Source of the DNA: Methanothrix sp.
Lineage (GTDB): Archaea > Halobacteriota > Methanosarcinia > Methanotrichales > Methanotrichaceae
Assembly: GCA_012798025.1 (NCBI GenBank)
Contig: JAAZNX010000124.1
Location: 1 to 17,550, forward strand
Length of the DNA stretch: 17,550 nucleotides
Direction: 5' to 3'
The first letter of the stretch is position 1; each line of letters opens with the position of its first letter. Below the pieces are notes generated by a model that saw only the letters and a program-made list of their open reading frames with translations, ran no database searches and was not told where the DNA came from. Of this stretch, positions 1,115-16,500 are shown one piece after another. Both the position numbers and the translations under genes were made by a program.

Positions 1115-2019
1115 CGCCAATGCTCGCGGTCAGGGACCTTCACTTCAACTATGGAAGTGCCCCAATACTCAAGGGCGTGTCCTTTGAGGTGGACGAAGGG
1201 GAACTGTGCGGCCTATTTGGTCCCAATGGTTGCGGGAAGACGACGCTATTCAAGTGCTGTCTGAACTTCTTGAAATACCAATCAGGATCTATACGCATGG
1301 ACGGCAAAGATGTCAAGGACCTCAGGGTTGAGGACATGGCCAAGATCGTGGCCTATGTGCCCCAGGAGCACAAACCGCCGTTCCCTTATCTGGCTAGGGA
1401 GGTGGTCCTGATGGGCAGAACGCCCAGGCTGAATGGATTTTTCGGTATCAGCCGGGAGGATAAGATGAAGGCGGCCGAGGCACTGGATCTCCTGGGGCTC
1501 GCAGAGCTGGCCGATTTTCCCTACAACCAGCTCTCTGGCGGTCAGCGCCAGATGATACTGATGGCCAGGGCCATAGCCCAGGAGACGCCGCTCATGTTCC
1601 TGGATGAGCCGACATCTGCTCTGGACTTCAGCAACCAGATCCGAATCTGGAGGATAATGCGCATGGTTGCGGAGAGAGGGGTGACGATCCTCGCCTGCAG
1701 CCACGATCCCAACCACGTCAGCTGGTTCTGCGACAAGGTGGTGGTGATGAAGGACAACCGCATCCTCAAGGAAGGATCGTCTCACAATGTCATCACCGAG
1801 GATACGATGGACGAGATCTATCAGGATGTGTGCTCTGTCAGGAGCATTGGCGGCATAAGGATGGTGCTGCCAAGGGATGTGGCGCTCCGGGAGGAGATGG
1901 AAGGGTTTGGACAGAGGGCTGCGGGGAAGATTGGTGTTCGTGAGGATGGGAGGGATCGACTGCAGCGAGGTAGGGAGGAGCAGCGCGTTATCGTGTCTCA
2001 TACTTTAGGCCATCGATGA
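1111..2019 (+). CDS. ABC transporter ATPase 1 (FepC/BtuD-like)
   Basis: This is the cytoplasmic ATPase that powers permease 1. Walker A is GPNGCGKTT at residues 37-45, the Q-loop is in YVPQEH, the signature LSGGQ is at 141-145, Walker B is LMFLDEPTS with D165/E166, and the H-loop His is near 198 in SHDPNH. The start at 1111 overlaps the permease stop (ATGA), with a GGGAAGG ribosome-binding site upstream. Related ATPases are about 255-265 residues. This one has 302 because about 45 Arg/Glu/Gly-rich residues follow the normal end (around IRMVLPRDV). The tail looks low in complexity and may be non-functional or reflect loss of the original stop. Assignment to iron/corrinoid-complex import rests on the FecCD partner. 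Confidence 0.94.
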   Translation: MTPMLAVRDLHFNYGSAPILKGVSFEVDEGELCGLFGPNGCGKTTLFKCCLNFLKYQSGSIRMDGKDVKDLRVEDMAKIVAYVPQEHKPPFPYLAREVVLMGRTPRLNGFFGISREDKMKAAEALDLLGLAELADFPYNQLSGGQRQMILMARAIAQETPLMFLDEPTSALDFSNQIRIWRIMRMVAERGVTILACSHDPNHVSWFCDKVVVMKDNRILKEGSSHNVITEDTMDEIYQDVCSVRSIGGIRMVLPRDVALREEMEGFGQRAAGKIGVREDGRDRLQRGREEQRVIVSHTLGHR

Positions 2020-2132: not shown

Positions 2133-3308
2133 ATGAGACTACTGAAGAAATGGCTGATGGTTTTGACTTGTGTTTGCCTGCTGATGAGCACAGGATGGGC
2201 TGCAGAAGAGACGAGAACAGTTGTGGACAGCCGCGGCGTAGAAGTGCAGATTCCTGCGCAAATCGAGCGGGTTGTCACCGTTTCAGCAGGTCTCATCGAG
2301 AGTATGATGTTTATTCTCGGGGAGGAGGAGAAGATCGTCGGAGTTGGGACGTCCAGCGTCCAGAATGTCTTCAACTACACATTTCCGACTGTAGGCGGTG
2401 AGACCCATGAATACCAAAACGGCACGCGCCCTGTGACCTACCTGTATCCTCGCATCAGAGATCTGCCGCTGATCGGGGAGGGAACAGCCATGAATTACGA
2501 AGCGCTTGCAGGGCTCAACCCAGATCTTGTGCTCCTTCGTGTTGGCATCTGGCAGCTTCCATCTATGGACGACGAAGGGGTGCGAAAGACGATCAGCACG
2601 ATCGAGGCTCTCGGGATCCCTGTTGTTGTGCTAAAAGGCCCCCCGTGTTTCGACAAGCCAGACATCTCGACGATCTCTGATGAGATCAGGATCCTTGGTG
2701 AGGTCTTCGGTAAGGAGGAGAAAGCAGACAAACTGGCTGAATACATCGAGTCCCAGACGCAAGTAGTCTTTGAGAGGACAAAGGATATCCCAGAAGCTGA
2801 GCGGCCGACCGTCCTCATATTCGGGGCATCGTCAACCGCTCGCAAGGCAGGAATGGCTGGCAGTGTGATGGGAACCGACACAATCGATTCCTACTTCATT
2901 GAGGAGATTGTTCATGCGAAGAACGCATATCAAAACGCCGGCAGCCCCACTATCTCCGCCGAACAATTGCTTGCCCTCGACCCCGATGTCATCGTGCTAT
3001 GCACATCCAATGGTTACCATCCGCCCGAGGAGCTCTACTCGGCACCCTACTATCAGAACGTCGGCGAGCTCTCAGCCGTGAAGAATCGCAGGGTTATGTC
3101 ACTTCCTTGGACGCCCTCCAACACGAGACGCCTTGAGTACCCGATAGATGTTATGGTAATAGCCAAGGCGGCCTATCCCGATAGATTCGCAGACATCGAT
3201 CTCGGAGATTGGCTGCTGGACTTTTACAAGAATGTCTACGGCGTGGACGAAGACACCGCAAAGGCATTGAGATCTGTACAGTGGATGGACTGGTGCGTGG
3301 AGAAATGA
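2133..3308 (+). CDS. ABC transporter substrate-binding protein A (FepB/BtuF-like, TroA fold)
   Basis: This is a secreted binding protein that would capture a metal complex outside the membrane and deliver it to a FecCD-type permease. The N-terminus is a signal peptide (MRLLKK, a hydrophobic run, then GWAA before EETRTV). The mature part opens with the family pattern TVVDSRGVEVQIPAQIERVV, then the first lobe, a long helix linker near residues 190-230, and a second lobe with LDPDVIVL. The start ATG has GGAAGGT at 2119-2125 with 7-base spacing. No lipobox or C-terminal anchor is obvious. At 391 residues it is longer than typical siderophore-binding proteins (about 300-350), with an insertion around residues 80-115. 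It is a close paralogue of the protein at 4974-6155, roughly four-fifths identical by eye. It follows ATPase 1 by 113 bases and is a natural partner for that transporter. Confidence 0.92.
   Translation: MRLLKKWLMVLTCVCLLMSTGWAAEETRTVVDSRGVEVQIPAQIERVVTVSAGLIESMMFILGEEEKIVGVGTSSVQNVFNYTFPTVGGETHEYQNGTRPVTYLYPRIRDLPLIGEGTAMNYEALAGLNPDLVLLRVGIWQLPSMDDEGVRKTISTIEALGIPVVVLKGPPCFDKPDISTISDEIRILGEVFGKEEKADKLAEYIESQTQVVFERTKDIPEAERPTVLIFGASSTARKAGMAGSVMGTDTIDSYFIEEIVHAKNAYQNAGSPTISAEQLLALDPDVIVLCTSNGYHPPEELYSAPYYQNVGELSAVKNRRVMSLPWTPSNTRRLEYPIDVMVIAKAAYPDRFADIDLGDWLLDFYKNVYGVDEDTAKALRSVQWMDWCVEK
3228..3308 (+). repeat. near-identical 3' segment shared by SBP genes A and B (other copy at 6075-6155)
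   Basis: The last 81 bases of the two paralogous binding-protein genes differ at only 4 positions by direct comparison. The neighbouring upstream 150 bases differ at many synonymous sites. The copies lie in the same orientation about 2.85 kb apart, flanking the dockerin gene and the stem-loop region. Confidence 0.8.
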
Positions 3309-3417: not shown

Positions 3418-4713
3418 ATGATGACCAATAGGATGCTGGAGATTCTTTGCATCTCGATAGTTTTTTCACTGATAGGCATTTCCATAGCAAGCTACGAGCC
3501 TGCGATATATGGAGATGCCAATCAGGATAGCCGTATAGATCAGAAAGACGTTGACTATGTTGCGGGCATAATAACGGGCACAAACGAGCGTACAAAGCTC
3601 TCAGATGCGAATTACGACGGAAAAGTCGATGAAGCCGATATACTTCAGATAAAACAGATTATTGCCGGCAATCAAACGAAGCTGACCTTATTGGATATGG
3701 ACAATAGATCGGTGACGATTCCTCAACCAGTAAATAGAGTTCTCGGGATCGGTTTCGGCTTTATCGAGAATACAATGTTTGCTCTGGGAGTTAAAGATAA
3801 GGTAGTCGGCACCGGCGGTGCTGTCCGTTCGAATTCGCCAACCACACAATACTTGATGCCCGAACTCGGCAAACTCCCTAATGCGGGCTCTCCAACTGAA
3901 AGCATAAACTATGAGACGGTCGCAGCAGCGAATCCTGATCTTGTAATCGCGAGAAAATCTGTTTACTTCCCGGACCAGACTGAAAAAGCAGTGACGATGA
4001 TAGACAAGATGGGCATACCTGTCGTAATTCTAGAGGATCCCAATCATTTTCATACATCGGATATCAACACGATTTATCAAGAAATTGGCCTCATTGGCAG
4101 GATCTTCAACAGGACCGATTCTGCACAAAGAATAATCGACAAAATGGATGAAAGCATCTCAATGATTGTCGAAAGGACAGAGGATATCAAAGAAGGAGGC
4201 AGACCAAAGGTGCTATTTTGCGGCCTGGGAAGCAACAGCAGTCGAAACAAAGGAGGCATTCTTGTTGTATGGGCAAAAGAATGCGCTTCAACATTCGCAG
4301 ATCTGATCAATATCAAGAGTGCTTACGAAGGAACAGGAAGGAATTACCTATCAGCAGAACATGTGTTAAATTTGGATCCCGATGTGATCATATTGGAGAC
4401 ATCTGGCGGCGGATGGAATATGAGCCAGCTCTATGAAGAGGAGTACTATAAAAACATCCAAGATTTAAAGGCTATCAAAGAGAAGCGAGTATATTCCATT
4501 GGAAGATTGACCAGCTATGGAGATATTCAATTGGAACTACCCATAATGCTAATGATCGAGGCAAAGAGCGTCTATCCTGAGAGATTCAGTGACATCAACC
4601 TCTCTATGTGGATTGAAAAATATTACGAGGACATGTATAAGATTGGCGCTGACGATGCAACGAATCTGAAAAATGTCCAAGGATTGGGGTGGATTGACAG
4701 TTCCGGGCTTTAG
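3418..4713 (+). CDS. dockerin-type domain fused to a metal-complex substrate-binding protein
   Basis: This is a secreted binding protein of the FepB/BtuF-like family with an N-terminal dockerin-type module. Residues 1-25 form a signal peptide. Residues about 31-84 hold two dockerin repeats, each with a complete EF-hand-like calcium loop: DANQDSRIDQKD (33-44) and DANYDGKVDEAD (63-74), each followed by a helix ending in IITG or IIAG. The binding-protein part starts near residue 89 (LTLLDMDNRSVTIPQPVNRV) and runs to the end. It is related to SBPs A and B (the AANPDLVIARK, LDPDVIIL and YPERFSDI regions match) but clearly diverged. The ATG at 3418 is chosen from GGAGG at 3404-3408. It lies 109 bases after SBP A. 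By eye it is more AT-rich than its neighbours. Dockerins normally dock onto cohesins and no cohesin is in this window. The domain call rests on the calcium loops and is firm; the docking role is inferred. Confidence 0.9.
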   Translation: MMTNRMLEILCISIVFSLIGISIASYEPAIYGDANQDSRIDQKDVDYVAGIITGTNERTKLSDANYDGKVDEADILQIKQIIAGNQTKLTLLDMDNRSVTIPQPVNRVLGIGFGFIENTMFALGVKDKVVGTGGAVRSNSPTTQYLMPELGKLPNAGSPTESINYETVAAANPDLVIARKSVYFPDQTEKAVTMIDKMGIPVVILEDPNHFHTSDINTIYQEIGLIGRIFNRTDSAQRIIDKMDESISMIVERTEDIKEGGRPKVLFCGLGSNSSRNKGGILVVWAKECASTFADLINIKSAYEGTGRNYLSAEHVLNLDPDVIILETSGGGWNMSQLYEEEYYKNIQDLKAIKEKRVYSIGRLTSYGDIQLELPIMLMIEAKSVYPERFSDINLSMWIEKYYEDMYKIGADDATNLKNVQGLGWIDSSGL

Positions 4714-4973: not shown

Positions 4974-6155
4974 ATGATGAGATCTTCGATAAAATATCTG
5001 TTTGCATTGGCCTGCATTTGCCTTTTGCTTGGCACCTGCCTGGCCGCAGAGGAGACAAGAACAGTTGTGGACGGCCGCGGCGTAGAGGTACAGGTTCCGG
5101 CGGAGATCAAGCGGGTTGTCACAGTCTCTGATGGCCTCATCGAGAGCACTATGTTCATCCTCGGAGAGGAGGATAAGATCGTCGGTCTCGGTTCGATCAG
5201 CCCGCAGACGGTCTTCAACTACACCTACCCGACTGTGAGCGGAGGAACATACGAGTACAAAGATGGGATGCACCCCGTGGCATACTTGTATCCTCGAATC
5301 AGGGAGCTTCCTCGTGTCACAGAGTCGGGTGCATCCATGAACTTCGAGGCGCTTTCAGGGCTCAATCCGGATCTTGTGATCCTCCGCGTTGGCGATACTG
5401 CCCTCCGATCAATGGAGAGCGATGATGTGCAGAAGACCATTAAGACGATTGAAGCCTTAGGGATTCCTTTCGTCGTGCTCAAGGGCCCCCCGTGCTTCGA
5501 TAAGCCTGACCTTTCAAAGATCTCCGATGAGATCAGGATCATTGGCAAGATCTTCGGGAAGGAAGAGAAAGCTGACAAACTAGCAGGTTATCTCGAGTCG
5601 CAGACGAAGCTTGTCTTTGAGAGGACAAAGGATATTCCTGAAGCGGAGCGTCCGACAGTCCTCGTGTTCGGCGCATCGCCGACAGCTCGGAAGGCAGGGG
5701 GCGTTGGCAGCGTGAAGGGGACAGACACAATTGATTCCTACTTCACCGAGGAGATAGTCCATGCGAAGAACGCCTTCCGGAGCACTGGCCAGCCTACCCT
5801 CTCTGCAGAACAACTTCTCTCTCTCAACCCTGATGTTATAGTTCTCTGCACTGCCAACGGCTACCACCCGCCCGAGGAACTTTACTCGGCACCTTACTAT
5901 CAGAATGTCGGCGAACTCTCTGCCGTAAGGAACCGGAGGGTCATGTCCCTGCCTTGGACTCCCGGCAACACCAAACGCCTCGAGTACCCGATCGACATCA
6001 TGGTGATTGCCAAGGCAACGTACCCAGAGCGGTTTTCAGACATCGATTTAGGAGAGTGGCTACTGGACTTCTATAAGAATGTCTACGGCGTGGACGAAGA
6101 GACCGCAAAGGCGCTGAGATCTGTACAGTGGATGGACTGGTGCGTGAAGAAATGA
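4974..6155 (+). CDS. ABC transporter substrate-binding protein B (paralogue of A)
   Basis: This secreted binding protein is of the same type as the one at 2133-3308, sharing TRTVVD.RGVEVQ, the VLKGPPCFDKPD and YHPPEELYSAPYYQNVGELS blocks and the VQWMDWCV tail. The signal peptide is residues about 1-24 (hydrophobic run ending CLAA before EETRTV). Start options are the adjacent ATGs at 4974 and 4977, with AAGG at 4965-4968, which is a weak site. Length is 393 residues. It is a product of local duplication with A. Sequence differences are spread through the ligand-binding lobes (for example VGIWQLPSM against VGDTALRSM), so the two may differ in ligand preference. The methyltransferase gene begins 18 bases after its stop, so it probably heads a long transcript that includes the enzymes. 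Confidence 0.92.
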   Translation: MMRSSIKYLFALACICLLLGTCLAAEETRTVVDGRGVEVQVPAEIKRVVTVSDGLIESTMFILGEEDKIVGLGSISPQTVFNYTYPTVSGGTYEYKDGMHPVAYLYPRIRELPRVTESGASMNFEALSGLNPDLVILRVGDTALRSMESDDVQKTIKTIEALGIPFVVLKGPPCFDKPDLSKISDEIRIIGKIFGKEEKADKLAGYLESQTKLVFERTKDIPEAERPTVLVFGASPTARKAGGVGSVKGTDTIDSYFTEEIVHAKNAFRSTGQPTLSAEQLLSLNPDVIVLCTANGYHPPEELYSAPYYQNVGELSAVRNRRVMSLPWTPGNTKRLEYPIDIMVIAKATYPERFSDIDLGEWLLDFYKNVYGVDEETAKALRSVQWMDWCVKK

Positions 6156-6173: not shown

Positions 6174-7076
6174 ATGAGACCGATGACACAATCAAATGCC
6201 CCGAGGCCTGAGATGGCCAATGCAGACCTCGACTGGAATGCCGTCTGGAAAGCCCTTTACGAAAAGAATGCAGAGTGCCGGGGGCGAGGGGACTGCGCCT
6301 CGATCTGGGCCTCTCGAGATCGTGCCCGTGCGTTTTTGGCACAGTCGCAGGAGAGACCGGAGCGCATTCTTCAAGATATCGAGGGCCTACCCCTCAAGGC
6401 TGACTCTAAGGTGCTGGACATCGGCGCAGGTCCAGGCACTCTTGCCGTCCCCCTGGCTGCCCATGTCGCTTCAGTTACCGCCGTCGAGCCTGCCGAAGGT
6501 ATGGCGGAGGTGATGAGCGAGCATGCACTGGAAAAGGGTGTAACAAATCTTTCAATTGTTCGCAAACGCTGGGAGGATGTTGATTCCAAGAAAGACCTCG
6601 ATGGTCCCTATGATATCGTCATCGCCCGGCATTCGCTAGGAATGCCGAATATCAGGGATGCGGTAAAAGCGATGTGCGAGGCATCTTCAGAATGGGTCTA
6701 TCTCTTCTGGTTTGCTGGGAGCACTGGATGGGAGAGGGCGATGATCGATCTCTGGCCCAAACTGCATGGCAGAGAATACCGGTCCGGTCCAAAGGCAGAC
6801 ATACTCTACAACGTCCTCTACTCGATGGGGATCTATCCTAATATGGAGACGGTGCAGATGGAATACACCCGCAAGTTTCCTGATATCAATGCCGCCGTAA
6901 ATGAGTTTAGGGAGCAGTACATGATATCATCCCCTGCCCAGGAGGAGATCCTGCGAGGGCATCTCCAAGAGAGCCTCTCGAAAAGCAGCGAGGGTCTGGA
7001 GAATTCTATGATGACGAGGCAGGTAAGGCTCTGGTGGAATGTTAATCAGCATGACGAACATCTTCAAGGATATTAA
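6174..7076 (+). CDS. class I SAM-dependent methyltransferase
   Basis: This is a predicted cytoplasmic methyltransferase. The SAM-binding motif I is VLDIGAGPGTLAVPLA starting near residue 80, followed by the acidic end of strand 2 in AVEPAEGM (E about 106) and a motif-IV-like PYDIVIARHSLGM near 145. About 70 residues precede the Rossmann core (DWNAVWKALYEKNAECRG) and probably cap the substrate pocket. Two nearby Cys (35, 41) are present. The C-terminal part (FWFAGSTGWERAM, then a helical tail) is not typical of ubiquinone-type methyltransferases. The substrate is unknown. Start choices are 6174, 6183 and 6213; only the last has a clear Shine-Dalgarno (GAGG, 6203-6206, 6-base spacing), so the true protein may lack the first 13 residues. 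It sits 18 bases after SBP B and 6 bases before the next methyltransferase, which argues for a role tied to the imported compound. Confidence 0.87.
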   Translation: MRPMTQSNAPRPEMANADLDWNAVWKALYEKNAECRGRGDCASIWASRDRARAFLAQSQERPERILQDIEGLPLKADSKVLDIGAGPGTLAVPLAAHVASVTAVEPAEGMAEVMSEHALEKGVTNLSIVRKRWEDVDSKKDLDGPYDIVIARHSLGMPNIRDAVKAMCEASSEWVYLFWFAGSTGWERAMIDLWPKLHGREYRSGPKADILYNVLYSMGIYPNMETVQMEYTRKFPDINAAVNEFREQYMISSPAQEEILRGHLQESLSKSSEGLENSMMTRQVRLWWNVNQHDEHLQGY

Positions 7077-7082
7077 TTTTAT

Positions 7083-8126
7083 GTGATTGACATGCTGGAA
7101 AATATTAAGCAAAACTTCGAGCAGGTTCTGGAATCGGATCAGGACGCCAGCGATCTGCGCAGCCTCTCCATATCTCTGGACACTTTCTATGCCCTTTCTT
7201 CCGCCATTGAGGTGGGTATATTTCAGGGTTTGATGCAGCCCAAGAGTTCCTCAGAGTTGGCCGAAGAACTGGGCCTTCATACAGAGATCACTGATAAGCT
7301 CTGCAAGGCTCTTGCATCGAGAGGATATCTTTTCAGAGGGGGCAGCAATTATGCCCTCTCCGATCTGGCCAGGACCTTTCTCACAGAGTCCTCTCCATTC
7401 TATCAAGGCAGTCTCATAAAATTAATGCAGAGAACGCGCGCGCAGCGGTGGAGCAACCTTTCCCGAGCTCTCAAAGAAGGCCCTATCGCTGCTCCGTCGG
7501 GACTCCAGGTCTTCGATGAATTCTTCTCCCTGGCCATGGCCGAGGGTGCAGTCGGCGGACCCCTGCAAAGGACGATAAGAGTATTGAAGGAGAGGCCGGA
7601 GTTTCACAAAGCTCGAAGATGCCTCGACCTGGGAGGCAGCCATGGGCTTTACTCCCTTGCATTTACCAGGTCAAATCCGGAACTTGAGGTAGTACTCTTC
7701 GATCTTCCTAAAGTAATAGATGGCGCCGCTAAAAAAGTGGTGTCTGACTCGGAAAGAATCGTCACAATGGCAGGAGATTTCAACAGGGATGATCTGGGCA
7801 AGGATTACGATTTGGTCTTTGCGTCCGATGTCCTCTACAGGCAGGAGGAATCCTTGCGCCCTTTGCTGGCCAGGATAAGGGAGAGCCTGAAGCAGGATGG
7901 GCTGTTAATATGCAAGCACTTTCACATCGACGACCTTATAAGCGACTCCTCGGCGGTTCTCTTTGATCTGATGTTCTCCATATCTGGGACGGGGGGTGTA
8001 GTCTATTCTTCTGCTGATTTCTGCCGCCTCCTGGTGTCATCGGGCTTCTCAGTCATTCAGGTTGAAGATATCAGCAGCTCTGTTAGTCCAAGCAAAATCA
8101 TCATGGCAAGGAAGGTGCAAGATTGA
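7083..8126 (+). CDS. O-methyltransferase-fold (ASMT/BchU-like) SAM methyltransferase
   Basis: This protein has the two-part layout of the Methyltransf_2 family. An N-terminal winged-helix dimerisation domain (about residues 18-100: TFYALSSAIEVGIFQGLM, then SSSELAEELGL) is followed by a SAM-binding domain with CLDLGGSHGLYSLAF from residue 180, VVLFDLPKVI and AGDF. Relatives include acetylserotonin and caffeate O-methyltransferases and the bacteriochlorophyll C-methyltransferase BchU. The usual catalytic His-Asp of the HDW motif aligns with Tyr252-Arg253 in SDVLYRQEE, so classical His-base O-methylation is doubtful. The start is GTG at 7083 with AAGGA at 7066-7070 (12-base spacing); ATG at 7092 is an alternative. 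The stop overlaps the cupin start (TTGA). The substrate is unknown; a tetrapyrrole, a benzimidazole-type ligand or a metallophore precursor are all possible. Confidence 0.87.
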   Translation: MIDMLENIKQNFEQVLESDQDASDLRSLSISLDTFYALSSAIEVGIFQGLMQPKSSSELAEELGLHTEITDKLCKALASRGYLFRGGSNYALSDLARTFLTESSPFYQGSLIKLMQRTRAQRWSNLSRALKEGPIAAPSGLQVFDEFFSLAMAEGAVGGPLQRTIRVLKERPEFHKARRCLDLGGSHGLYSLAFTRSNPELEVVLFDLPKVIDGAAKKVVSDSERIVTMAGDFNRDDLGKDYDLVFASDVLYRQEESLRPLLARIRESLKQDGLLICKHFHIDDLISDSSAVLFDLMFSISGTGGVVYSSADFCRLLVSSGFSVIQVEDISSSVSPSKIIMARKVQD

Positions 8127-8482
8127 AGGTTTACAGGATTGAGGAATTGGAGTCGTTCCAGACTCCGGAGGGTGTGATGACGCCAGTCTTCGCTTATGAT
8201 AAGGCAGCAGTAACTAATCTAGAGATACCAGCCGGGCTGCAGGTCAAACCACATTCTCATCCAGGCGATGGCATTTTGATATTGAAGAAGGGATCGGTAA
8301 AGCTCTTTGGAGAAAGCGCTGTTGTCATAAAAGCTGGTGACTTGGCCTTTATTCCAGGTGGCACAGAAGTAGGATTGGAAAGCAATGAGGACTCTGAAGC
8401 CGTCATTCTTTCAGTTCCATCTCGCTACAATAGTGTAGAGGAGTTCAGAGAGCGGCTTAGGAGCCTATTTCCAGGTCGTTAG
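8123..8482 (+). CDS. small single-domain cupin protein
   Basis: This is a 119-residue single cupin barrel. Motif 1 is visible as GLQVKPHSHPGDGILILKKG with His44 and His46. Motif 2 is GDLAFIPGGTEVGLESN. The usual motif-1 Glu is Gly50 (Asp49 is adjacent) and the usual motif-2 His is Val, so only two of the four standard metal ligands remain. It may bind a small molecule or a metal complex rather than act as a dioxygenase. The start is TTG at 8123, overlapping the preceding stop (TTGA), with GGAAGGTG at 8110-8117, so it is tightly coupled to the methyltransferase. SBP C follows within about 35 bases. The substrate is unknown; a binding, isomerase or sensor role for the transported compound is plausible. 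Confidence 0.9.
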   Translation: MKVYRIEELESFQTPEGVMTPVFAYDKAAVTNLEIPAGLQVKPHSHPGDGILILKKGSVKLFGESAVVIKAGDLAFIPGGTEVGLESNEDSEAVILSVPSRYNSVEEFRERLRSLFPGR

Positions 8483-8503
8483 CATGCGACCTAGTGCGGC
8501 AAT

Positions 8504-8508
8504 GAGGG
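8504..8508 (+). promoter_or_regulatory. Shine-Dalgarno site fixing the SBP C start
   Basis: GAGGG directly abuts an ATG at 8509 but lies 9 bases before the in-frame ATG at 8518. That spacing matches other genes here and favours 8518. Confidence 0.6.
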
Positions 8509-8517
8509 ATGCAGGTT

Positions 8518-9570
8518 ATGAGAATGATAACATACTTGCTGATAGCCTGCCTGCTGGAGCTGGCAGTACTCTCAGGGTCTCTGGCTCAGGGCGAGCAGAA
8601 GATCAGTGTAGTTGATTACAATGGCAGGACTGTCGAGGTTTCTGGTAATATAACATCCGTAGTGAGCCTGGACCCGGACGCCACAAGAATTCTGGTGGCC
8701 CTGGGCGCGGGAGATCGCATTGCAGGCGTGGAGGCGACGGCCAAGAGCTGTCCGGTTCTCAAGAAGGTCTTTCCGGAGGTAGAGACGCTTCCTGATGTGG
8801 GAAGCATCTCTCAAGGCACCTTGAGCCTGGAGAAGCTGGCTAATATGAAGCCAGATGTGGTGTTCCTGAGAGGCTTATATCAGGATACAGCTGAGAAGAT
8901 TCAGGGAGAACTGGGGATACCGTGCGTGTGCACCTACGGATCAGTCAAGAGTGTGGACGACTTCTTAAAGACCGTATCGATCATAGGAGAGACGGTCAAC
9001 AGAATGAACCGGTCCGTGGAGATATCCGACCTCATGCAGAATAAGATGGCAGAGATCAATGCCACTGTATCATCCGTTCCCGACGATCAGAGGGTGCGAA
9101 TACTCTATATCGGCCCGCCTTTCACAAAGGATCTCTTGCGTGTGATCTACAACCCACATCTATGTGTCTATAACGCAGGAGGCATAAATGTGGCCTACAC
9201 CAGCGATAAGATCTCTCCAGGCGTCGGCCCCTGGCAGACCGTTTCCCTGGAGCAGGTTGCAGGTTGGAACCCAGATATGATATTCATCCACGGCTTAAGC
9301 CAGCTTACTGTGCAGGATGTACTGAACAATGCCGACTGGAAGGATCTGAAGGCCGTCAAGGAGCAGAAGGTCTACAAGGTCTTTGCTGTATCCACCGGCT
9401 ACGATCCGTCTATGCTGCTGCTGGGCACAATGCAGATGGCCAAGATCATGTACCCCGACAAGTTCGACTTCGATTTCCAGGAATGGGCAGACCAGGTCTG
9501 TCAGCAGATCTACGGCATGGAAGGGCTTCCCGCCTACATGGAGTCGGAGTATGGAATATCCAAGGTCTGA
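8518..9570 (+). CDS. ABC transporter substrate-binding protein C (FepB/BtuF-like)
   Basis: This is a secreted metal-complex binding protein of the TroA fold. The signal peptide is residues about 1-24 (MRMITYLLIACLLELAVLSG, then SLAQ). The mature part begins ISVVDYNGRTVEVSGNITSVVSLDPDATRIL, followed by the GDRIAGVEATAKSC block, lobe 1 with MKPDVVFLRG, the linker helix, and lobe 2 with WNPDMIFIHG. At 350 residues it belongs to a second subgroup together with SBP D (shared SCP-L-K-FPE, PDVGS and C-terminal YGIS-V), distinct from A, B and the dockerin fusion. The start at 8518 is chosen from GAGGG at 8504-8508; ATG at 8509 is the alternative. No convincing lipobox is seen at the expected position. 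It sits among the enzymes and upstream of permease 2, which it probably serves. Confidence 0.92.
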   Translation: MRMITYLLIACLLELAVLSGSLAQGEQKISVVDYNGRTVEVSGNITSVVSLDPDATRILVALGAGDRIAGVEATAKSCPVLKKVFPEVETLPDVGSISQGTLSLEKLANMKPDVVFLRGLYQDTAEKIQGELGIPCVCTYGSVKSVDDFLKTVSIIGETVNRMNRSVEISDLMQNKMAEINATVSSVPDDQRVRILYIGPPFTKDLLRVIYNPHLCVYNAGGINVAYTSDKISPGVGPWQTVSLEQVAGWNPDMIFIHGLSQLTVQDVLNNADWKDLKAVKEQKVYKVFAVSTGYDPSMLLLGTMQMAKIMYPDKFDFDFQEWADQVCQQIYGMEGLPAYMESEYGISKV

Positions 9571-9606
9571 GTGAATGGAGACGAACAATATCATTGACTG
9601 CGCGGG

Positions 9607-9611
9607 CAGGA
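9607..9611 (+). promoter_or_regulatory. Shine-Dalgarno-like site deciding the radical SAM start
   Basis: CAGGA abuts the ATG at 9612 and sits 9 bases before the in-frame ATG at 9621, so 9621 is preferred. The open frame continues back to 9264 inside the SBP C gene, but that part is out of frame with real coding sequence. Confidence 0.5.
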
Positions 9612-9620
9612 ATGATAGAA

Positions 9621-10661
9621 ATGTTAAAAGATATACTGGATAAAGCAGCAATAGATGGGTCTATATCCCAGGAGGAAGCCCTCTTCCTCCTCGATAAAGT
9701 CCAAACAATCGAAGCGCTCATGGAACTTGCAAAAACAGCTTCGAGAATCAGAGATGATGCTCTTGGAAATGTTTTTAAATTTGACGGATTCATCGGCCCA
9801 ATAACCGCCTGCAAGATAGATCCTCCATGCAAGTATTGTGGCAGATCCGCAGGAATTCGCACAGACTTCTCTGAGGAAAAGACCCTAACTATAGATGAAA
9901 TCGAGCTGGCTTCAAGGCTCATGAAAGATGCAGGAATTAAAAGAGTAGAGCTGGGTGGGGGAACGCTTCTGGATGGCTCTGGCCAGAAGGTCATTGAGGC
10001 TGTTAAAGCGGTGAACAAAGTGGCTTCCCTCAACATATGGATCAACGTAGGGCCTTCGCTCTCCTCAGACGACTTAGCTCAATTAAAAGGACTTGGAGCG
10101 AAAGAGGTATGCAGCAGCCTTGAGACCATTAATCCAGATGTATTTGCCAAGATGAAGCCGGGTGATAGTCTGGAAGCCAGAATGAAACTTGCAAGAGAGA
10201 TAAATAGCATCGGCTTGGGGCTTGCAAGCGTAATGATGGTCGGGCTCGGCAGCAGTAATGAGGATTATGTCAAGCATCTGTTTTGGCTCAAGGAGTTTGA
10301 GAACCTCAGCCATTTCTGCATAACAGGCCTGAATCCGCTTCATGGATCTCAGATTCAGGGCCAGAATATGGCGAACTCTTTTGAAGTTGCAAAGGTTGGA
10401 GCAGTTGCAAGGCTCGTATTGAGGACCAAAGATATATCATTTGGAGGAATGATGAATGATCCCAGGCTCTTGCCTTTGTGGATAATGGCGGGTGGAAATA
10501 GAGCTATACACCTGGGTGCGCATCTGCACAGGGCAAAAGCGTGGGGACAGCCTCATCCAGGTGCACTCGTGGAGAGATTCGGAGAGGTGGAATTTGTAAA
10601 CATGCTGCCTCTAACGACTCGATTTGTTAGAGAGATGGGGATGGAGGTGGATATAATATGA
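9621..10661 (+). CDS. radical SAM protein, HmdB (HcgA)-like, with CX5CX2C cluster motif
   Basis: This is a predicted cytoplasmic radical SAM enzyme of the BioB/HydE/PylB/HmdB group. The [4Fe-4S] ligands are Cys64, Cys70 and Cys73 in ACKIDPPCKYCG, i.e. CX5CX2C rather than the common CX3CX2C; this spacing is known from HmdB (HcgA), which acts in guanylylpyridinol cofactor synthesis for [Fe]-hydrogenase. A GGE-type SAM motif is present as VELGGGT near residue 112, and the C-terminal half (MNDPRLLPLWIMAGGNRAIHLGAH) resembles the BioB-like barrel. Length is 346 residues, right for the family. The N-terminal helices (ISQEEALFLLDKVQ) also match BioB-type proteins. It lies between SBPs C and D and its stop overlaps the SBP D start (ATGA). 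No Hmd gene or other hcg gene is seen here, so its product is probably something else. The family is certain, the substrate unknown. Confidence 0.9.
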   Translation: MLKDILDKAAIDGSISQEEALFLLDKVQTIEALMELAKTASRIRDDALGNVFKFDGFIGPITACKIDPPCKYCGRSAGIRTDFSEEKTLTIDEIELASRLMKDAGIKRVELGGGTLLDGSGQKVIEAVKAVNKVASLNIWINVGPSLSSDDLAQLKGLGAKEVCSSLETINPDVFAKMKPGDSLEARMKLAREINSIGLGLASVMMVGLGSSNEDYVKHLFWLKEFENLSHFCITGLNPLHGSQIQGQNMANSFEVAKVGAVARLVLRTKDISFGGMMNDPRLLPLWIMAGGNRAIHLGAHLHRAKAWGQPHPGALVERFGEVEFVNMLPLTTRFVREMGMEVDII

Positions 10662-11677
10662 AAAAAATGATAGCAGTAATGCTTATATTTTTTGCAGGAA
10701 TATCCATCGGGCTTGGAGAGGAAGCTAATGTAAAAGTGACCGATCAATTGGGCAGAGAAGTGGTCTTGCCACATGAAGCTGATAGAGTCGTCAGCCTTTG
10801 GCCAGAGGCCACGAGAGTGGTTTTCGCATTGGGTGCTGAAGATAAAATTGTAGGAATTGATAGCAGTAGCAAGACCTGCCCAATACTCAAAACAGCATTT
10901 CCTGAAATTAATGAAACACCAGATGTGGGAAGTTCTACGAGCGGAACGCTGAGCAATGAAGCCATTGCGAAACTAAATCCAGATATCATTTTCATGAGTA
11001 CAGACAATCCTGACCTTGCGGACAGGATCCAGAAGTCCCTAGGCGTTCCTGTCGTGTGTGTTAGGTTCAATCCACCTCCTTCAAGAAAATATAGCTTCGA
11101 TCTGTTCTCGATAATTGGCAAATGCGTAGGCAAAGAGGCTCGTGGCGAAGAAGTCAAGAGCTACCTTGAGCAGAACATGTCTGAGGTTATTTCTGTAACA
11201 TCAAAACTCCCTGATTCAGAAAAGCCCAAGGTGTATGTGACTTTTGCGTATGATCTGCTGAAAACAATTGGATACTTCGATGTCGTGGATCTTGCAGGCG
11301 GAAAAAATATCGAGTTATCAGGAGGCAAGAAGGATGCATGGGTGACTGTGAGCCTGGAAGATGTAAATAAATGGAACCCGGATGTGATAATTCTCCATGG
11401 ATTCGGTAACTTTGCTCCACAGGATGTCTTGAACGATTCGAATTGGCAGCAGATCACAGCTGTAAAGAATAAACAGGTTTACAAGCTGACGCTTGGCTGG
11501 ACTGGATTCGATCCGGCGGGCTTTGTGGTAAACGTGATGCTGATGGCAAAAGTATTCCATCCGGACAAGTTTGATAGCAGCGTTGAAAACGAGGCCAACC
11601 AGATATTTGAAGAGGTATATGGTGTCGAGGGACTATATAGCAGATTAAAAGGCAGATACGGTCTATCCGATGTTTAA
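10658..11677 (+). CDS. ABC transporter substrate-binding protein D (FepB/BtuF-like)
   Basis: This is a secreted binding protein with a signal peptide (MKKMIAVMLIFFAGISIGLG before EEANVKV), then VKVTDQLGREVVLPHEADRVVSLWPEATRVV, the GAEDKIVGIDSSSKTCP block, lobe 1 with LNPDIIFMS and lobe 2 with WNPDVIILHG. At 339 residues it pairs with SBP C as a diverged paralogue. The start overlaps the radical SAM stop as ATGA, with a strong GGAGGTG at 10643-10649 (8-base spacing), so the two products are translationally coupled. Permease 2 begins 28 bases downstream; this SBP is the most likely direct partner of that transporter. By eye its base composition is more AT-rich than the permease and ATPase that follow. 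Confidence 0.93.
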   Translation: MKKMIAVMLIFFAGISIGLGEEANVKVTDQLGREVVLPHEADRVVSLWPEATRVVFALGAEDKIVGIDSSSKTCPILKTAFPEINETPDVGSSTSGTLSNEAIAKLNPDIIFMSTDNPDLADRIQKSLGVPVVCVRFNPPPSRKYSFDLFSIIGKCVGKEARGEEVKSYLEQNMSEVISVTSKLPDSEKPKVYVTFAYDLLKTIGYFDVVDLAGGKNIELSGGKKDAWVTVSLEDVNKWNPDVIILHGFGNFAPQDVLNDSNWQQITAVKNKQVYKLTLGWTGFDPAGFVVNVMLMAKVFHPDKFDSSVENEANQIFEEVYGVEGLYSRLKGRYGLSDV

Positions 11678-11705: not shown

Positions 11706-12755
11706 ATGTTGCCAAATATGGTCTTCAAGGAGATTATGGTGTCTGTGAACTACATCCGGTGCTGGAGACCGGGTATGGGATTTCAGAAGTACAAAGTGGC
11801 GCTGATCTTCAGTCCCCTTATACTCTTGATCCTCTACCTCTCCATGGGCAAGTACAGCGTTTCCTTTGGATCTCTTGAGCAGCTGCTCTATAGCGACTCC
11901 ATCGACAAGACTATCTTCTTCAACATCCGGCTGCCCAGGGCCGTCGAGGCTATGATCTTCGGAGCCTGCATGGGGATATCCGGGGCAAGTCTCCAGACAA
12001 CTCTGAGAAATCCTCTAGTCAGCCCCTACTTTCTGGGGATCTCCTCGGGAGCGGCCTTCGGAGCAGCTCTATCTATGGCCCTCTTCGGCTACAGGAACTT
12101 CTTCCTGGTGCAGCCCTCCGCCATAATCTTCGCTCTGCTGGCCGTCTTTTTAACCCTCAGTTTATCCAAGTTCCGCGGCCAATTCTCGCCCGTCTCCCTG
12201 GTGCTGTCGGGAATGATAATCTCCGCTCTTTTTGCGGGCTTTCTTTCACTGGTCCAGATCTTGGTGGAACCGGAGAAGACCCAGGCAATCGTCGCCTGGA
12301 TGATCGGGAGGCTCTATACCATTACCTGGTCAGACGTCAGGGTATCAGCTCCCCTGGCACTTCTGGGAATTATCGGCCTTCTCCACTTCCGCTGGCGTAT
12401 CTTCGTCCTCTCTATGGGCGATGAAGAGGCTAGGTCTTTGGGGATCAATGTGGAGCGCGAGAGGCTGATGATCATCTTGCTGGCATCAATTGCCACGGCC
12501 TCTGTAGTGTCCGTGACGGGCATCATAGGCTGGGTCTGCCTTATAGCTCCGCACATCACCCGCTTTTTGGTGGGTTCAGATCCGAAGGTCCTGCTGCCAG
12601 CCTCCATTTCCGTGGGGGCATGCTTCATGCTGCTGGCGGATATGATCTCCAGGACTGCCTGGAGCTTTGAGATTCCCGTTGGCGTCATCACCACTATCAT
12701 TGGAGCACCGCTGTTCCTTTATCTTATGAGGAGGGCTCAAAATGAATGGCGTTGA
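11706..12755 (+). CDS. FecCD/BtuC-family ABC transporter permease 2
   Basis: This is a membrane permease of the metal-complex import family. Landmarks are RLPRAVEAMIFGACMGISGA, LRNPLVSPYFLGISSGAAFG, the coupling region DEEARSLGINVERERL, GIIGWVCLIAPHITRFLVG and the C-terminal EIPVGVITTIIGAPLFLYL. Multiple hydrophobic helices span the whole length, which is normal for the family at 349 residues. Compared with permease 1 it has a full N-terminus before helix 1. The exact start is uncertain: ATG 11706, ATG 11718 and GTG 11739 (with AAGGAG at 11727-11732, 6-base spacing) are all in frame. It overlaps ATPase 2 by 14 bases. It is clearly homologous to permease 1 but well diverged, so the two transporters are not a recent duplication. 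Confidence 0.93.
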   Translation: MLPNMVFKEIMVSVNYIRCWRPGMGFQKYKVALIFSPLILLILYLSMGKYSVSFGSLEQLLYSDSIDKTIFFNIRLPRAVEAMIFGACMGISGASLQTTLRNPLVSPYFLGISSGAAFGAALSMALFGYRNFFLVQPSAIIFALLAVFLTLSLSKFRGQFSPVSLVLSGMIISALFAGFLSLVQILVEPEKTQAIVAWMIGRLYTITWSDVRVSAPLALLGIIGLLHFRWRIFVLSMGDEEARSLGINVERERLMIILLASIATASVVSVTGIIGWVCLIAPHITRFLVGSDPKVLLPASISVGACFMLLADMISRTAWSFEIPVGVITTIIGAPLFLYLMRRAQNEWR

Positions 12756-13512
12756 GGCTGTGGATCTATGCTTCAGCTACGGGGAGATGATGATCATCCG
12801 GCAGGCATCCTTCGGGCTGCAGCCTGGCGAGATTCTCTCCATCCTGGGCTCCAACGGCTGCGGAAAGACTACTCTCTTAAAATGCCTGAATATGCTGCTA
12901 AAGCCCGAGGGAAAGGTGCTGGTGGACAACATGGACCTGAAGAGCTTGAGCGGCCGGGATCTGGCCATGCTCATGGGCTATGTCCCTCAGATGCATTCGC
13001 CGGATTTCCCCTATCGGGTAGTGGATGTGGCTGTAAGCGGCAGAACTCCCCAGCTGGGTTTCTCCATCCCTTCCAAGAGGGACTATGAGCTGGCCAGAAA
13101 AGCGCTAGATCGCGTGGGAGTGGGCCACCTGGCAGATAAGTTCTACACCCAGCTCAGCGGTGGAGAGCTGAAGCTGGTGCTCATCGCCCGGGCACTGGTG
13201 CAGGAGCCCAAAGTCCTGCTCCTGGATGAGCCCACGTCTCACCTGGATTTCAAGAATCGTGTGTTGGTGCTCAAAATCCTGCGGGAGATCGCTGACGACG
13301 GCATTGCCGTTATTATGAGCGAGCATGATCCCAATCTGGCCTCTCTGTTCTCGGATAAAGTCCTGCTCATGATGAACAAGGGGGAGATCGTGAGGTACGG
13401 GTCTGCAAAGGATGTTCTCAGCCCCGAGAACATCATGAAGGTCTACGGGCTGGAGATAGAGGTCTTCGAAAAGGAGGGTGCAAGGTATATATTTCCCAGG
13501 CTCGGTGCTTGA
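12742..13512 (+). CDS. ABC transporter ATPase 2 (FepC/BtuD-like)
   Basis: This is the ATPase partner of permease 2. Walker A is GSNGCGKTT at residues 36-44, the Q-loop is in YVPQMHSPDFPY, the signature is LSGGE from 138, Walker B is LLLDEPTS with D162/E163, and the H-loop His lies in SEHDPN near 195. Length is 256 residues, standard for the family. The ATG at 12742 lies inside the end of the permease gene (14-base overlap) and has a strong GAGGAGGG at 12728-12735 with 6-base spacing, so translation is coupled. It is the last gene of the + strand block; the convergent chelatase gene ends 83 bases away. Confidence 0.95.
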   Translation: MNGVEAVDLCFSYGEMMIIRQASFGLQPGEILSILGSNGCGKTTLLKCLNMLLKPEGKVLVDNMDLKSLSGRDLAMLMGYVPQMHSPDFPYRVVDVAVSGRTPQLGFSIPSKRDYELARKALDRVGVGHLADKFYTQLSGGELKLVLIARALVQEPKVLLLDEPTSHLDFKNRVLVLKILREIADDGIAVIMSEHDPNLASLFSDKVLLMMNKGEIVRYGSAKDVLSPENIMKVYGLEIEVFEKEGARYIFPRLGA

Positions 13513-13595: not shown

Positions 13596-16500
13596 TCATG
13601 CTCCTATCACCTTGCTCATCTTCTCCTTCCAGGCCTTCACCTCATCCGCAGTAACCACATCTATCGCTCCGCCCTGGAACTCGCCCCCGACATCGCCCAT
13701 CCTCTCCTCCATCCAGCCCTCGATCTCCAGGTACAGAGACTTCAGGGTGTCCAGAACTTCAGGATCGGCCTTCCACAGTCCTCTCTGCTCGGCCTCCAGG
13801 AGCCTTCGGCCCATCTCCTCCATGGCCCAGGGGTTGTTCTCCTGAAAGAACTTGCGGTTCTCCTCGTCCATGATAAAGGTCCGGGCAATGTCGTCGAAGA
13901 TCCAATCGTCCACCTCCTGCGTCGTGGCCTCCCAGCCGTAGACCCTTCCCACGCGCTTGGAGATGTCTCCTGCGCCTTTGTAACCGTGTTGCTTCATGCC
14001 CTCTATCCATTTCGGATTGAGGAGCTTTGTGCGCACCACGCGCCTGACCTCGTCTGCAAGGTCCCGAACCTCGACGTGCTCAGGCTCCCTGGTGTCGCCA
14101 TAGTAGGCTTTCACATCCTTTCCGGAGATGTGCCTGGCCGCAACAGTCATCCCTCCATGCGTGCCGAAATAGCAGCAGCATCCGAAGAGATCGTACTCGT
14201 CGCTGACGACCTTGTTATAGGTGACATCTACGGATTTGAGGGAGTTCACGAAGTTTTGGTGCGACTCTTTGCCAGCCAATCCCTTTCCATAGGCATAGCC
14301 ATTCCAGTAGACGAATATATCCGACAGATCCTTCTCGTCCTTCCAGGCGCTAGCGTAGACGGCCAGGTTGGTTCCCGATTGATAAGTCCCGGGCTTGCTC
14401 GCAAAGATGCGAAGCGTCGCCTCACGCCAGTCCTTGGCCGTTCCGTTCTCCAGATTTGTCAGAGTGTGCTTGCGAACGAAGTTCATCTCCAGAGGCTCAT
14501 CGAGCGCCGCCACGGCCTGAACAGCCTCATCGACCGTGTCGATACAGTTGGGGAAGTTGTCTCTGGTGATGCCGGAAACTCGGACGGTCAGATCGATCCT
14601 GGGCCTTCCAAGCTCCTCGAGAGGGACGACCTTGAAGCCCTTCAGCCGGCCGTTGGGCAGCCAGACAGGTTCTGTGCCGAGCAAGAAGAGCATCTGGGCC
14701 ATATCCTCCCCATCAGCCCACATGATATCATTGCCCATCCAGAAGAAGGCGATGTTCTCCGGATAGCGGCCCTCCTCCTTCTGGTGCTTGGCGATGACCG
14801 CCCTGCCAAGCTTCTGTCCCACCTTCCAGGCGGTCTTCGTGGGCACGCGATATGGATCTAAAGTGTAGAAGTTCCTTCCAGTAGGCAGCACATCATCCCG
14901 TCCGCGGGTGATCAGGCCGCTTGGGCCCGCCTCGGTGTATCCGCCGTTCATGCCGTTTAGCAGTGCCTCTATCTCCAATGAGGCTTCCAGACGGGCCTGA
15001 AGATCCAGGACCTTATCATGAATGGCCTCCAGCTGGCTTTCGTAGCCTGCAGTGGACAGGCCCAGGACCTCATCAGGCCGCGCTCCACAGCCATGCAAAT
15101 GAACCTGAAGATACATGTCAATGAGCTTCTTGCATAATCCGTCGATCAGCTCCAGGAGCTGACCGTGCGACTTGCCGTAGCGCTCGTTAACAGCTCCCTG
15201 ATCCGCCAGCAGCTCCTCCATGGAGAGGCCCATCATGGCGGCGACTGTACCGCGTAGCGGGACGCCGCTTCCATCGAAGCGCATCACTGAGTTGATGAAC
15301 TCCACGCGCTTCTCGCCTTCAGGAAGCTGGCCGAAGATATGCATCCCTGAATCGATCTGTGTATTCCTGACATGGCTCAGCTCGTTATGGGCCTTGGCCA
15401 CGATCTCCTCCAGGGGCATGTCATCGGCCAGCTTCATGCCTCTGTCGAGGTTTGCAGCCTTGATGGCGTCGATTAGCAGATGTCGCAGCTCGTGCGAGCG
15501 AGCATGATCGTGCTTGGCAGTCTCATACTCGCCCAGCAGCCTGTCCACCTCAAGCAGCTCATCATAAAGCCCTGACTCTGTCATGACAGTTTGCATGTGG
15601 TCCACGAGCGTCGCATAGCTGCGGCGCTTGGCTATGGTTCCCTCTGGCGGGTTGTCCGCGTTGTAGATGTACAGATGAGGAATGGTGCCGATACATACGT
15701 CCGGGTAGCAGTTCCTGGACAGGCCCACGCCTTTCCCCGGCAGGAACTCCAGGTTGCCGTGCGTTCCGACGTGAATGAGAACATCTGCGCCGAAGATGTT
15801 TTCCAGATAGCGGTAGGTGGCCATGTACTGGTGAGTTGGCGGGACATCGGGGTCGTGCAGGATCTTGCAGACCTGGCCGTCGCAGCGCGCCCCGGCGCAG
15901 CCGCGCTTGGGCTGGACGCAGACTACCGTGTTGCCGTACTGGACGCCCGTGATCACGATCTTGCCCTGGTAGAGCATGGCCGCCGGGATGTCGTTCTTTA
16001 GCTCACCGGGCGGATTGCCCCAAGCATCGCTGACACGATCCTTTACATTGGGAGTGAGCGTATCGAACCACTTCTCATACTCCTCTTTAGTCTGATAGGC
16101 CAGTACCCCTCCTTTGGCCACGATCTCCTCGATAGGAGTCCAGCGAAACTCGGAGATGGCTTTTCTGTCCATGATGGTATCGATCAGCTCTTTGCCGGTC
16201 TTGGGGGTATTTTCAAGGGAGTATCCGGCATCGGCCATTCTGTTCATGATGCGAGCAACGCTTTCGATTGTATCCAGGTGTGCTCCGCCGCCCACCGTTG
16301 CCTCAACAGAGGCGCAGGGATTGTTATGGAATATGAAGGCCACCCGGCGCTCGGCTGCGGGTTTTTTGGCCAATTCGATCCATTTCTTTACTCTTTCTGC
16401 AAACTTCTCGCAGCGCTCAGTGATAGGTGTGCGTTCCTCGTATTCTCCTTGCTTTGACCCTGCGCTTATGATGATGGGCTCGATCAAGCCTTCGAACTCG

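Follow-up and report, generated by a model that had tools for sequence, protein, structure and literature searches.

We analysed a 17,550-base contig of a Methanothrix sp. genome (contig C141, hereafter the window; the genome comprises 1.74 Mb in 234 contigs and is 87.65% complete). Gene calls and family scans place 14 genes on it, 13 on the plus strand and one, for a CobN-family chelatase, on the minus strand. Four of them encode enzymes, namely two methyltransferases (MT1 and MT2), a cupin and a radical S-adenosylmethionine (SAM) enzyme, here called rSAM. An earlier note on this DNA had taken it for a metal-complex import locus with enzymes acting on the ligand, and this is the best reading of the locus. 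The features are the following, SBP standing for substrate-binding protein:

140-1114, plus strand: FecCD permease 1 (PF01032, 311.8 bits)
1111-2019, plus strand: ATPase 1 (ABC_tran, 112.5 bits)
2133-3308, plus strand: SBP1 (PF01497)
about 3418-4713, plus strand: SBP2 with an N-terminal dockerin type I domain (PF01497, PF00404)
4974-6155, plus strand: SBP3 (PF01497)
6174-7076, plus strand: MT1, class I SAM methyltransferase fold (PF13489/PF13649)
7083-8126, plus strand: MT2, Methyltransf_2 with a dimerisation domain (PF00891, 58.5 bits; PF08100, 36.3 bits)
8123-8482, plus strand: Cupin_2 protein (PF07883, 31.1 bits, cut-off 27.2)
8509-9570, plus strand: SBP4 (PF01497, 94.4 bits)
9612-10661, plus strand: rSAM (PF04055, 52.6 bits; CX5CX2C)
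10658-11677, plus strand: SBP5 (phmmer against solved Peripla_BP_2 proteins)
11706-12755, plus strand: FecCD permease 2 (NCBIfam BtuC/FecCD models, 160-225 bits, every one under its cut-off)
12742-13512, plus strand: ATPase 2, paired with FecCD permease 2
13596-17408, minus strand: CobN-family class I chelatase (NF004646)

This layout agrees with the earlier description of two methyltransferases, a cupin and a radical SAM enzyme among SBPs, between two FecCD/ATPase pairs, with a CobN-type chelatase converging on the block; the converging gene is separated from the plus-strand block by 83 bases. From SBP3 through permease 2 the intergenic distances are 18, 6, -4, 26, 41, -4 and 28 bases, among them the gaps of 6-41 bases (6, 26 and 41) and the overlaps that had been reported around the enzyme genes. 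The gene pairs permease 1/ATPase 1, MT2/cupin and rSAM/SBP5 each overlap by 4 bases, and permease 2/ATPase 2 overlap by 14. MT2 has an alternative ATG start at 7092; its homologues are 344 aa long, and its relatives at 69% and 85% identity carry the name Methanothrix sp. Scanning the window for tRNA genes and Rfam families gave no matches.

We showed that the enzyme genes are linked to metal importers in other genomes. Counting an importer permease within 6 kb of the focal gene, in loci on which our label models were also trained (which favours the counts there somewhat), linkage was seen for 20 of the 29 import-clade rSAM rows and, among the MT genes of the fetched loci, which are mostly best-scoring matches, for 37/52 MT2 and 21/29 MT1 rows, all such rows being related by descent. 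Where at least 5 kb of contig was present on either side, the figures were 14/16 for rSAM and 18/23 for MT2. The controls gave 0/5 for HcgA, 1/6 for unlinked Archaeoglobus rSAMs and 1/20 for arbitrary places in nine genomes. A Peripla_BP_2 SBP gene lay within the same distance in 22/29 import-clade rSAM rows. Thus, the neighbourhood check suggested in the earlier note yielded linkage above controls, and the absence of conserved linkage that it had named as a refutation did not occur, since the enzymes are linked to importers in relatives.

The order rSAM-SBP-FecCD-ATPase is found in several phyla (L numbers denote fetched loci): in Archaeoglobi (L003, L013, L062; L006 in Mnemosynella), Baldrarchaeota (L007), Thermoprotei (L008), Desulfobacula (L009, adjoining TonB receptors) and Planctomycetota (L010), as well as in L084. 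Archaeoglobus neptunius, a cultured species, likewise has an rSAM and an SBP of this type. In L032-L035 and L085 the order is SBP-rSAM-FecCD-ATPase, and in L004 and L005 the rSAM-importer unit has MT2, a cupin and a PNPOx flavoprotein inserted. Other neighbours of rSAM are a NikB/NikC-type set (L063), SBP_bac_5 (L028), an ECF transporter (L064), FecCD without SBP (L065), CobN/BchH (L030) and nitrogenase-like genes (L027, L037); L036 has an SBP only, and the 3-kb contig L019 only another methyltransferase and an ATPase. Tandem pairs of divergent rSAM-family paralogues occur at L063:9653-11747 and L028:1495-4035.

The methyltransferases have a wider distribution. MT1 matches at E≤1e-15 are present in 137 of 237 genomes of the class, versus 12 for rSAM, and MT2 matches in 57/237 (E≤1e-25) and in 12/59 Archaeoglobia (E≤1e-40). 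Within 6 kb, the 52 MT2 rows have a cupin (23), PNPOx (18), a CooC-like gene (12) or an ABC-2 membrane protein (9), to be compared with arbitrary places, where CooC-like genes were found at 2/40 centres, an importer permease at one, and cupin, PNPOx and ABC-2 genes at none. Eight of 11 further Archaeoglobia MT2 regions contain FecBCD operons (L200, L201, L203-L206, L208, L210); the MT2 region of L207 faces a ZnuABC-type set, and no importer is present in L202 or L209. FmdE-family proteins adjoin FecBCD/MT2 operons or lie near MT2 (L208:5894-6565, L210:5583-6245, L155:11346-11786). Several methanogen or ANME-type genomes also have nitrogenase-like NifD-NifD-NifH sets (L154:12741-19901, L155:4681-8376, L166, L168, L147:11434-15032) that adjoin MT2, PNPOx, cupin, ABC-2 exporters or SBP arrays; where scanned, they stay under the CfbC/CfbD cut-offs.

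The four enzyme genes are three separable modules, rSAM-SBP-FecCD-ATPase, MT2-cupin and MT1-FecBCD, because each of them recurs separately beside metal importers. A single fixed four-gene cassette, as proposed earlier, is not what we see: MT1-MT2 (L146, L148) and MT2-cupin (L149, L153, L200, L201) occur without an adjoining rSAM, and rSAM occurs without methyltransferase or cupin in L003, L006-L010, L013, L062 and L084. It might then be asked whether the window is a composite metal-uptake island, in which repeated insertion or transfer has set modules for different ligands side by side, with rSAM, MT1 and MT2-cupin acting on different substrates. The free recombination of modules among relatives, the extended SBP arrays and multiple chelatase paralogues of Methanothrix relatives and the rarity of rSAM matches in the class are in line with such an island, but the short gaps and 4-base overlaps of the window, the presence of MT2-cupin and rSAM in one operon in L004 and L005 too, and the fact that each of the two accompanies the SBP4/5-permease 2 importer type make it improbable.

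We also characterized the relation of rSAM to HcgA, the HmdB-group enzyme. The CX5CX2C motif of rSAM (CKIDPPCKYC) is kept in 39/39 sequences compared, HcgA among them. Against the HmdB model TIGR03957 it scores 166 bits, about half the equivalog cut-off of 320.9, so that the label 'HmdB-like' of the earlier note fits whereas plain 'HmdB' would be wrong. In a tree of the 39 sequences, the five HcgA (L072-L076), recognised through their hmd/hcg neighbours, are separated from the remaining 34 at 100/100 support; the import group of this tree is made of rows that are neither HcgA nor of the unlinked Archaeoglobus genus (L066-L071), the fragment L037 being excluded. A larger import group of 132 rSAMs, mostly metagenomic proteins seen without their genomic context and excluding the Methanosarcinaceae rows (L032-L035, L036, L085), has 58 positions with a conservation of at least 93%; the five HcgA have the same residue at 32 of these, a conserved but different one at 17, and vary at 9. 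The neighbours differ as well, hmd/hcg genes for HcgA and importers for the window-type rSAM, and family scans found no hmd or hcg gene among the 14 genes of the window, the rest of the genome not having been searched. As judged from these comparisons, rSAM is the sister group of HcgA; an assignment as HmdB or HcgA itself is ruled out by score, tree and residues. HcgA converts a small molecule of unknown identity into the pyridinol precursor from which the FeGP cofactor is built (PMC10100467). Through this relationship heterocycle chemistry is plausible for rSAM, although the product of HcgA is not thereby transferable to it. In L066-L071, from one Archaeoglobaceae genus, a separate branch of the rSAM family has motifs such as CxMEKYCIYC and mostly no adjoining importer.

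The rSAM of the window clusters with those of Archaeoglobi and Mnemosynella (support 100/98), to which it is 66-69% identical, and a metagenomic protein is closer still (94%). In its own class matches at E≤1e-30 are found in 12/237 genomes and, outside its own genome, none exceeds 49% identity; this distribution suggests that rSAM was acquired by transfer. At E≤1e-40, matches are present in 11/59 Archaeoglobia genomes (6 at 66-69% identity and 5 in the unlinked genus), in 1/291 genomes of the Desulfobacula class and in 2/148 and 2/81 genomes of two further groups.

The window alone does not tell the metal, and its relatives point to nickel. Five loci (L146, L176-L179) have the order SBP_bac_5-CooC-MT2-NikB-NikC, and L175, where the contig ends, has CooC-MT2-NikB-NikC. 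The CooC-like protein of L003 matches solved CooC (3kje) at E 9.9e-18, and a CXC that we take to be the nickel site is kept in 15/15 CooC-like proteins, one of them from an arbitrary place. In L063, tandem rSAMs are accompanied by a permease that passes the cut-off for nickel permeases (Opp2B, 382.1 vs 350), by two proteins of the DUF364 type ('putative heavy-metal chelation') and by a CfbE F430 synthase marginally above its cut-off (257.3 vs 250). The rSAM gene of L064 precedes genes for a CbiQ-family protein and an ECF ATPase and then nikR (NF003381, 176.5 vs 105; TIGR02793, 108.1, under 175.45), with a CbiMNQO set adjoining on the other strand. Searching the fetched loci by pattern for NikR-like genes gave three proteins, two of them NikR (L064, L075). 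A link to F430 genes was given little weight: in L032, cfbD, cfbC and a split cfbB precede SBP-rSAM-FecCD-ATPase, from which endA and one more gene separate them, and cfb genes were not seen in L033-L035.

The second line of evidence comes from NikR-type boxes upstream of relatives' operons. This analysis was exploratory: half-sites were first noticed by eye, and the pattern came partly from recall and was afterwards found as the predicted delta-proteobacterial NikR box GTGTTAC-[N13/14]-GTAACAC (PMC545781). GTATTAC/GTGTTAC half-sites lie upstream of archaeal rSAM operons, at 8/20 operon starts (L003-L008, L062, L085). Scanning 2.23 Mb for GTRTTAC-Nx-GTAAYAC with at most 1 mismatch and spacers of 8-23, we found 6 matches at spacer 14 and 1 at spacer 13, versus 0 and 2 after block shuffling; since the totals over all spacers are 13 real and 25 shuffled, the information lies in the spacer alone. 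Five of the six spacer-14 matches are upstream of rSAM, CbiM or MT1/FecBCD operons (L005, L007, L064, L163, L165), and the one in L071 is intragenic.

We then compared import with control operons in two passes, counting operons that share a first-gene start once. In the first pass (upstream span -300..+60, operon gap 120 bases), spacer-14 boxes were found at 3/101 import vs 0/689 control operons with at most 1 mismatch (p 0.002), 5/101 vs 8/689 with at most 2 (p 0.017) and 19/101 vs 40/689 with at most 3 (p 4e-5); the excess at spacer 13 was not significant. The half-site was present at 20 import vs 18 control operons (p 1.1e-9), and GTATTAC ties for the highest of 200 permuted 7-mers. Of the 8 site-bearing control operons, 7 came from hmd/hcg loci (L072, L075, L076), several as divergent pairs with one common site; in Methanothermobacter, hmd is upregulated when nickel is limiting (PMC3087415). 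In the second pass (-200..+40, 80 bases), from which the hmd/hcg loci L072-L076 were excluded post hoc after this observation, the counts with at most 1, 2 and 3 mismatches were 4/104 vs 0/696, 6/104 vs 1/696 (p 2.7e-5) and 17/104 vs 25/696 (p 4e-6). With at most 2 mismatches, spacers 12, 13, 15 and 16 gave no significant excess, and shuffled import upstreams gave a mean of 0.2 and a maximum of 2 sites; with at most 3, spacers 15 and 16 gave p 0.044 and 0.016. The six import operons with a box are in L005, L006, L007 (a perfect palindrome), L163, L165 and L210. In the hmd/hcg loci themselves, 6/49 operons have a NikR-type box with at most 2 mismatches; the N14 palindromes of L072, L075 and L076 have 2 mismatches, and L075 has two nikR genes.

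The importers of the window bear on the choice between metals. Permease 1 scores 288.9 and 221.2 bits against two BtuC equivalogs, and permease 2 scores 224.5 and 169, under the cut-offs of 461 and 334 in each case. For this reason, and because relatives point to nickel, the cobalt or corrinoid system that had been the leading guess is displaced. Import and remodelling of a corrinoid or F430-like cofactor, with BtuFCD-like importers and rSAM and the methyltransferases making or attaching a lower ligand or ring substituent, would account for the FecCD/BtuCD-type importers, the CobN-family neighbour, the weak similarity of MT1 to CbiT in the family scan, the CbiMNQO set adjoining the rSAM of L064 and the nitrogenase-like genes near some relatives. 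We consider it quite unlikely, given the BtuC cut-offs unmet by both permeases, the NikR-type boxes rather than a cobalamin riboswitch at relatives (with no Rfam match in the window) and the location of MT2 with CooC inside NikABC-type operons, which to our knowledge import no corrinoid.

The SBPs fall into two subfamilies, SBP1-SBP3 in one and SBP4 and SBP5 (38% identical) in the other. SBP1 (2133-3308) and SBP3 (4974-6155) share 78% identity and seem to stem from a recent duplication, with the dockerin-bearing SBP2 between them. Among solved structures, SBP5 matches 4hn9 best (E 7.9e-33) and the named nickel-binding protein of Helicobacter pylori, 4ino, at E 3e-13. The cleft residues C134 (18/18) and H247 (17/18) are conserved in a close set and were dropped as a signature, being not near-invariant among 61 wider sequences.

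An iron or heme system has to be considered here. Its importers would bring in heme or a chelate of iron, and rSAM and the methyltransferases would make a siderophore or degrade porphyrin, as is done in heme uptake by HmuS and ChuW. The FecCD fold, the best solved SBP relatives, which are named iron-complex proteins, and the TonB receptors adjoining the Desulfobacula unit, nearest to heme/siderophore models though all under cut-off, speak for iron, as does the CobN-family HmuS, which takes iron out of heme (PMC12583661). The nickel genes and NikR-type boxes at relatives speak against it and leave it unlikely; no search was made for Fur/DtxR-type sites, so that this comparison is not a direct test.

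The chelatase of the window passes the CobN family model NF004646 (2180.3 bits, cut-off 1468). At E≤1e-100, its own genome has 8 matches of the CobN/BchH family, in part fragments (C141, C80, C91, C142, C164, C173, C180, C187), and 38/50 genomes of the family have at least one. Near-full orthologues of the window type (at least 79% identity) number 13 among those listed in the family; all 8 that were fetched (L268-L275) have SBP genes in their stretch and 5/8 have FecCD, and a ninth (L148) adjoins MT1-MT2. The proximity to CobN noticed earlier is therefore a recurrent one. Long SBP arrays surround CobN in some family relatives (L271, L269). Family scans, confined to the window, found no CobS/CobT or ChlI/ChlD partner among its 14 genes. 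The function of archaeal CobN-family relatives is called unclear in the HmuS study (PMC12583661).

Altogether, we read the window as a locus for acquiring metal complexes, the metal most likely being nickel, with a probability of about 0.6; that its enzymes in addition act on the ligand is for us an even bet. Import of nickel complexes, together with enzymes building or dismantling their ligand, is preferred to corrinoid remodelling. The two FecBCD-type importers and the five binding proteins would import a metal held by an organic ligand, on which the cytosolic rSAM, MT1, MT2 and cupin would act, and the neighbouring chelatase probably removes the metal from a macrocyclic ligand or inserts it into one. 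Either a nickel-binding metallophore would be built, or an imported nickel complex, such as a nickel tetrapyrrole, dismantled. We slightly favour building, because of the SAM enzymes beside Nik-type importers, the ABC-2 exporters by MT2 and the relation to HcgA. Dismantling is suggested by the CobN-family chelatases beside FecBCD with their parallel in HmuS, by the one-enzyme-plus-importer unit in several phyla and by the lack of an exporter in the window or near 28/29 rSAM rows.

Several observations weigh against the nickel reading. MT1 and MT2 are frequent without rSAM. No exporter is encoded in the window, and one lies within 6 kb in 1/29 rSAM rows and 9/52 MT2 rows (ABC-2), counts on which exporter linkage as a general metallophore sign would be too strong a claim. 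The NikR half-site is found nowhere in the window, which thus has no NikR box (its best intergenic spaced palindrome has 5 mismatches), and it is absent at 12/20 rSAM operon starts, including those of Desulfobacula, Planctomycetota and Methanosarcinaceae, with only 42 bases available in L037. Finally, of the six other CobN-family contigs of the genome, mostly short, one has SBP and FecCD (L264), one an ABC ATPase (L261) and four neither.

Importers with cytosolic tailoring enzymes are already known; as far as we found, the present enzyme set and the nickel setting are new. In opine metallophore systems (staphylopine, pseudopaline), SAM-using enzymes are co-encoded with a metal ABC importer, and with an exporter in some relatives. 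The enzymes and importer type are different there and the window has no exporter; no homology search for opine enzymes was made. NikABCDE/NikMNQO systems with NikR resemble the locus in that MT2 and CooC lie within relatives' NikABC-type operons and nikR and boxes near rSAM operons, but the importers of the window are of the FecBCD type and without a NikR box. The hmu heme-uptake operon likewise places a CobN-family chelatase, HmuS, beside a FecBCD/HmuTUV-type importer, but the available text names no rSAM or methyltransferases for it (PMC12583661). NiuBDE of H. pylori is a FecCD/FecB-type importer that serves nickel (PMC5140060), but it is without tailoring enzymes, and organic metallophores appear, in the portion available, only in the references of that paper. 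Judged by their listings, none of the papers found in searches of the open-access literature reports an HcgA-like enzyme in an import operon or an archaeon-made nickel ligand.

Nickel can limit methanogens (PMC3087415). It is possible, though rather doubtful, that anaerobic archaea more generally scavenge nickel through HcgA-type radical SAM enzymes and methyltransferases that make or open a FecBCD-carried ligand, with CobN-family proteins as the nickel chelatases or de-chelatases of this route, possibly stripping F430-like tetrapyrroles of dead methanogens. If our reading is true, archaeal CobN-family proteins would gain a role and HcgA-type chemistry would extend beyond the FeGP cofactor. 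The four-gene operon would be available for testing this idea, and anaerobes would have an undescribed route to scarce nickel.

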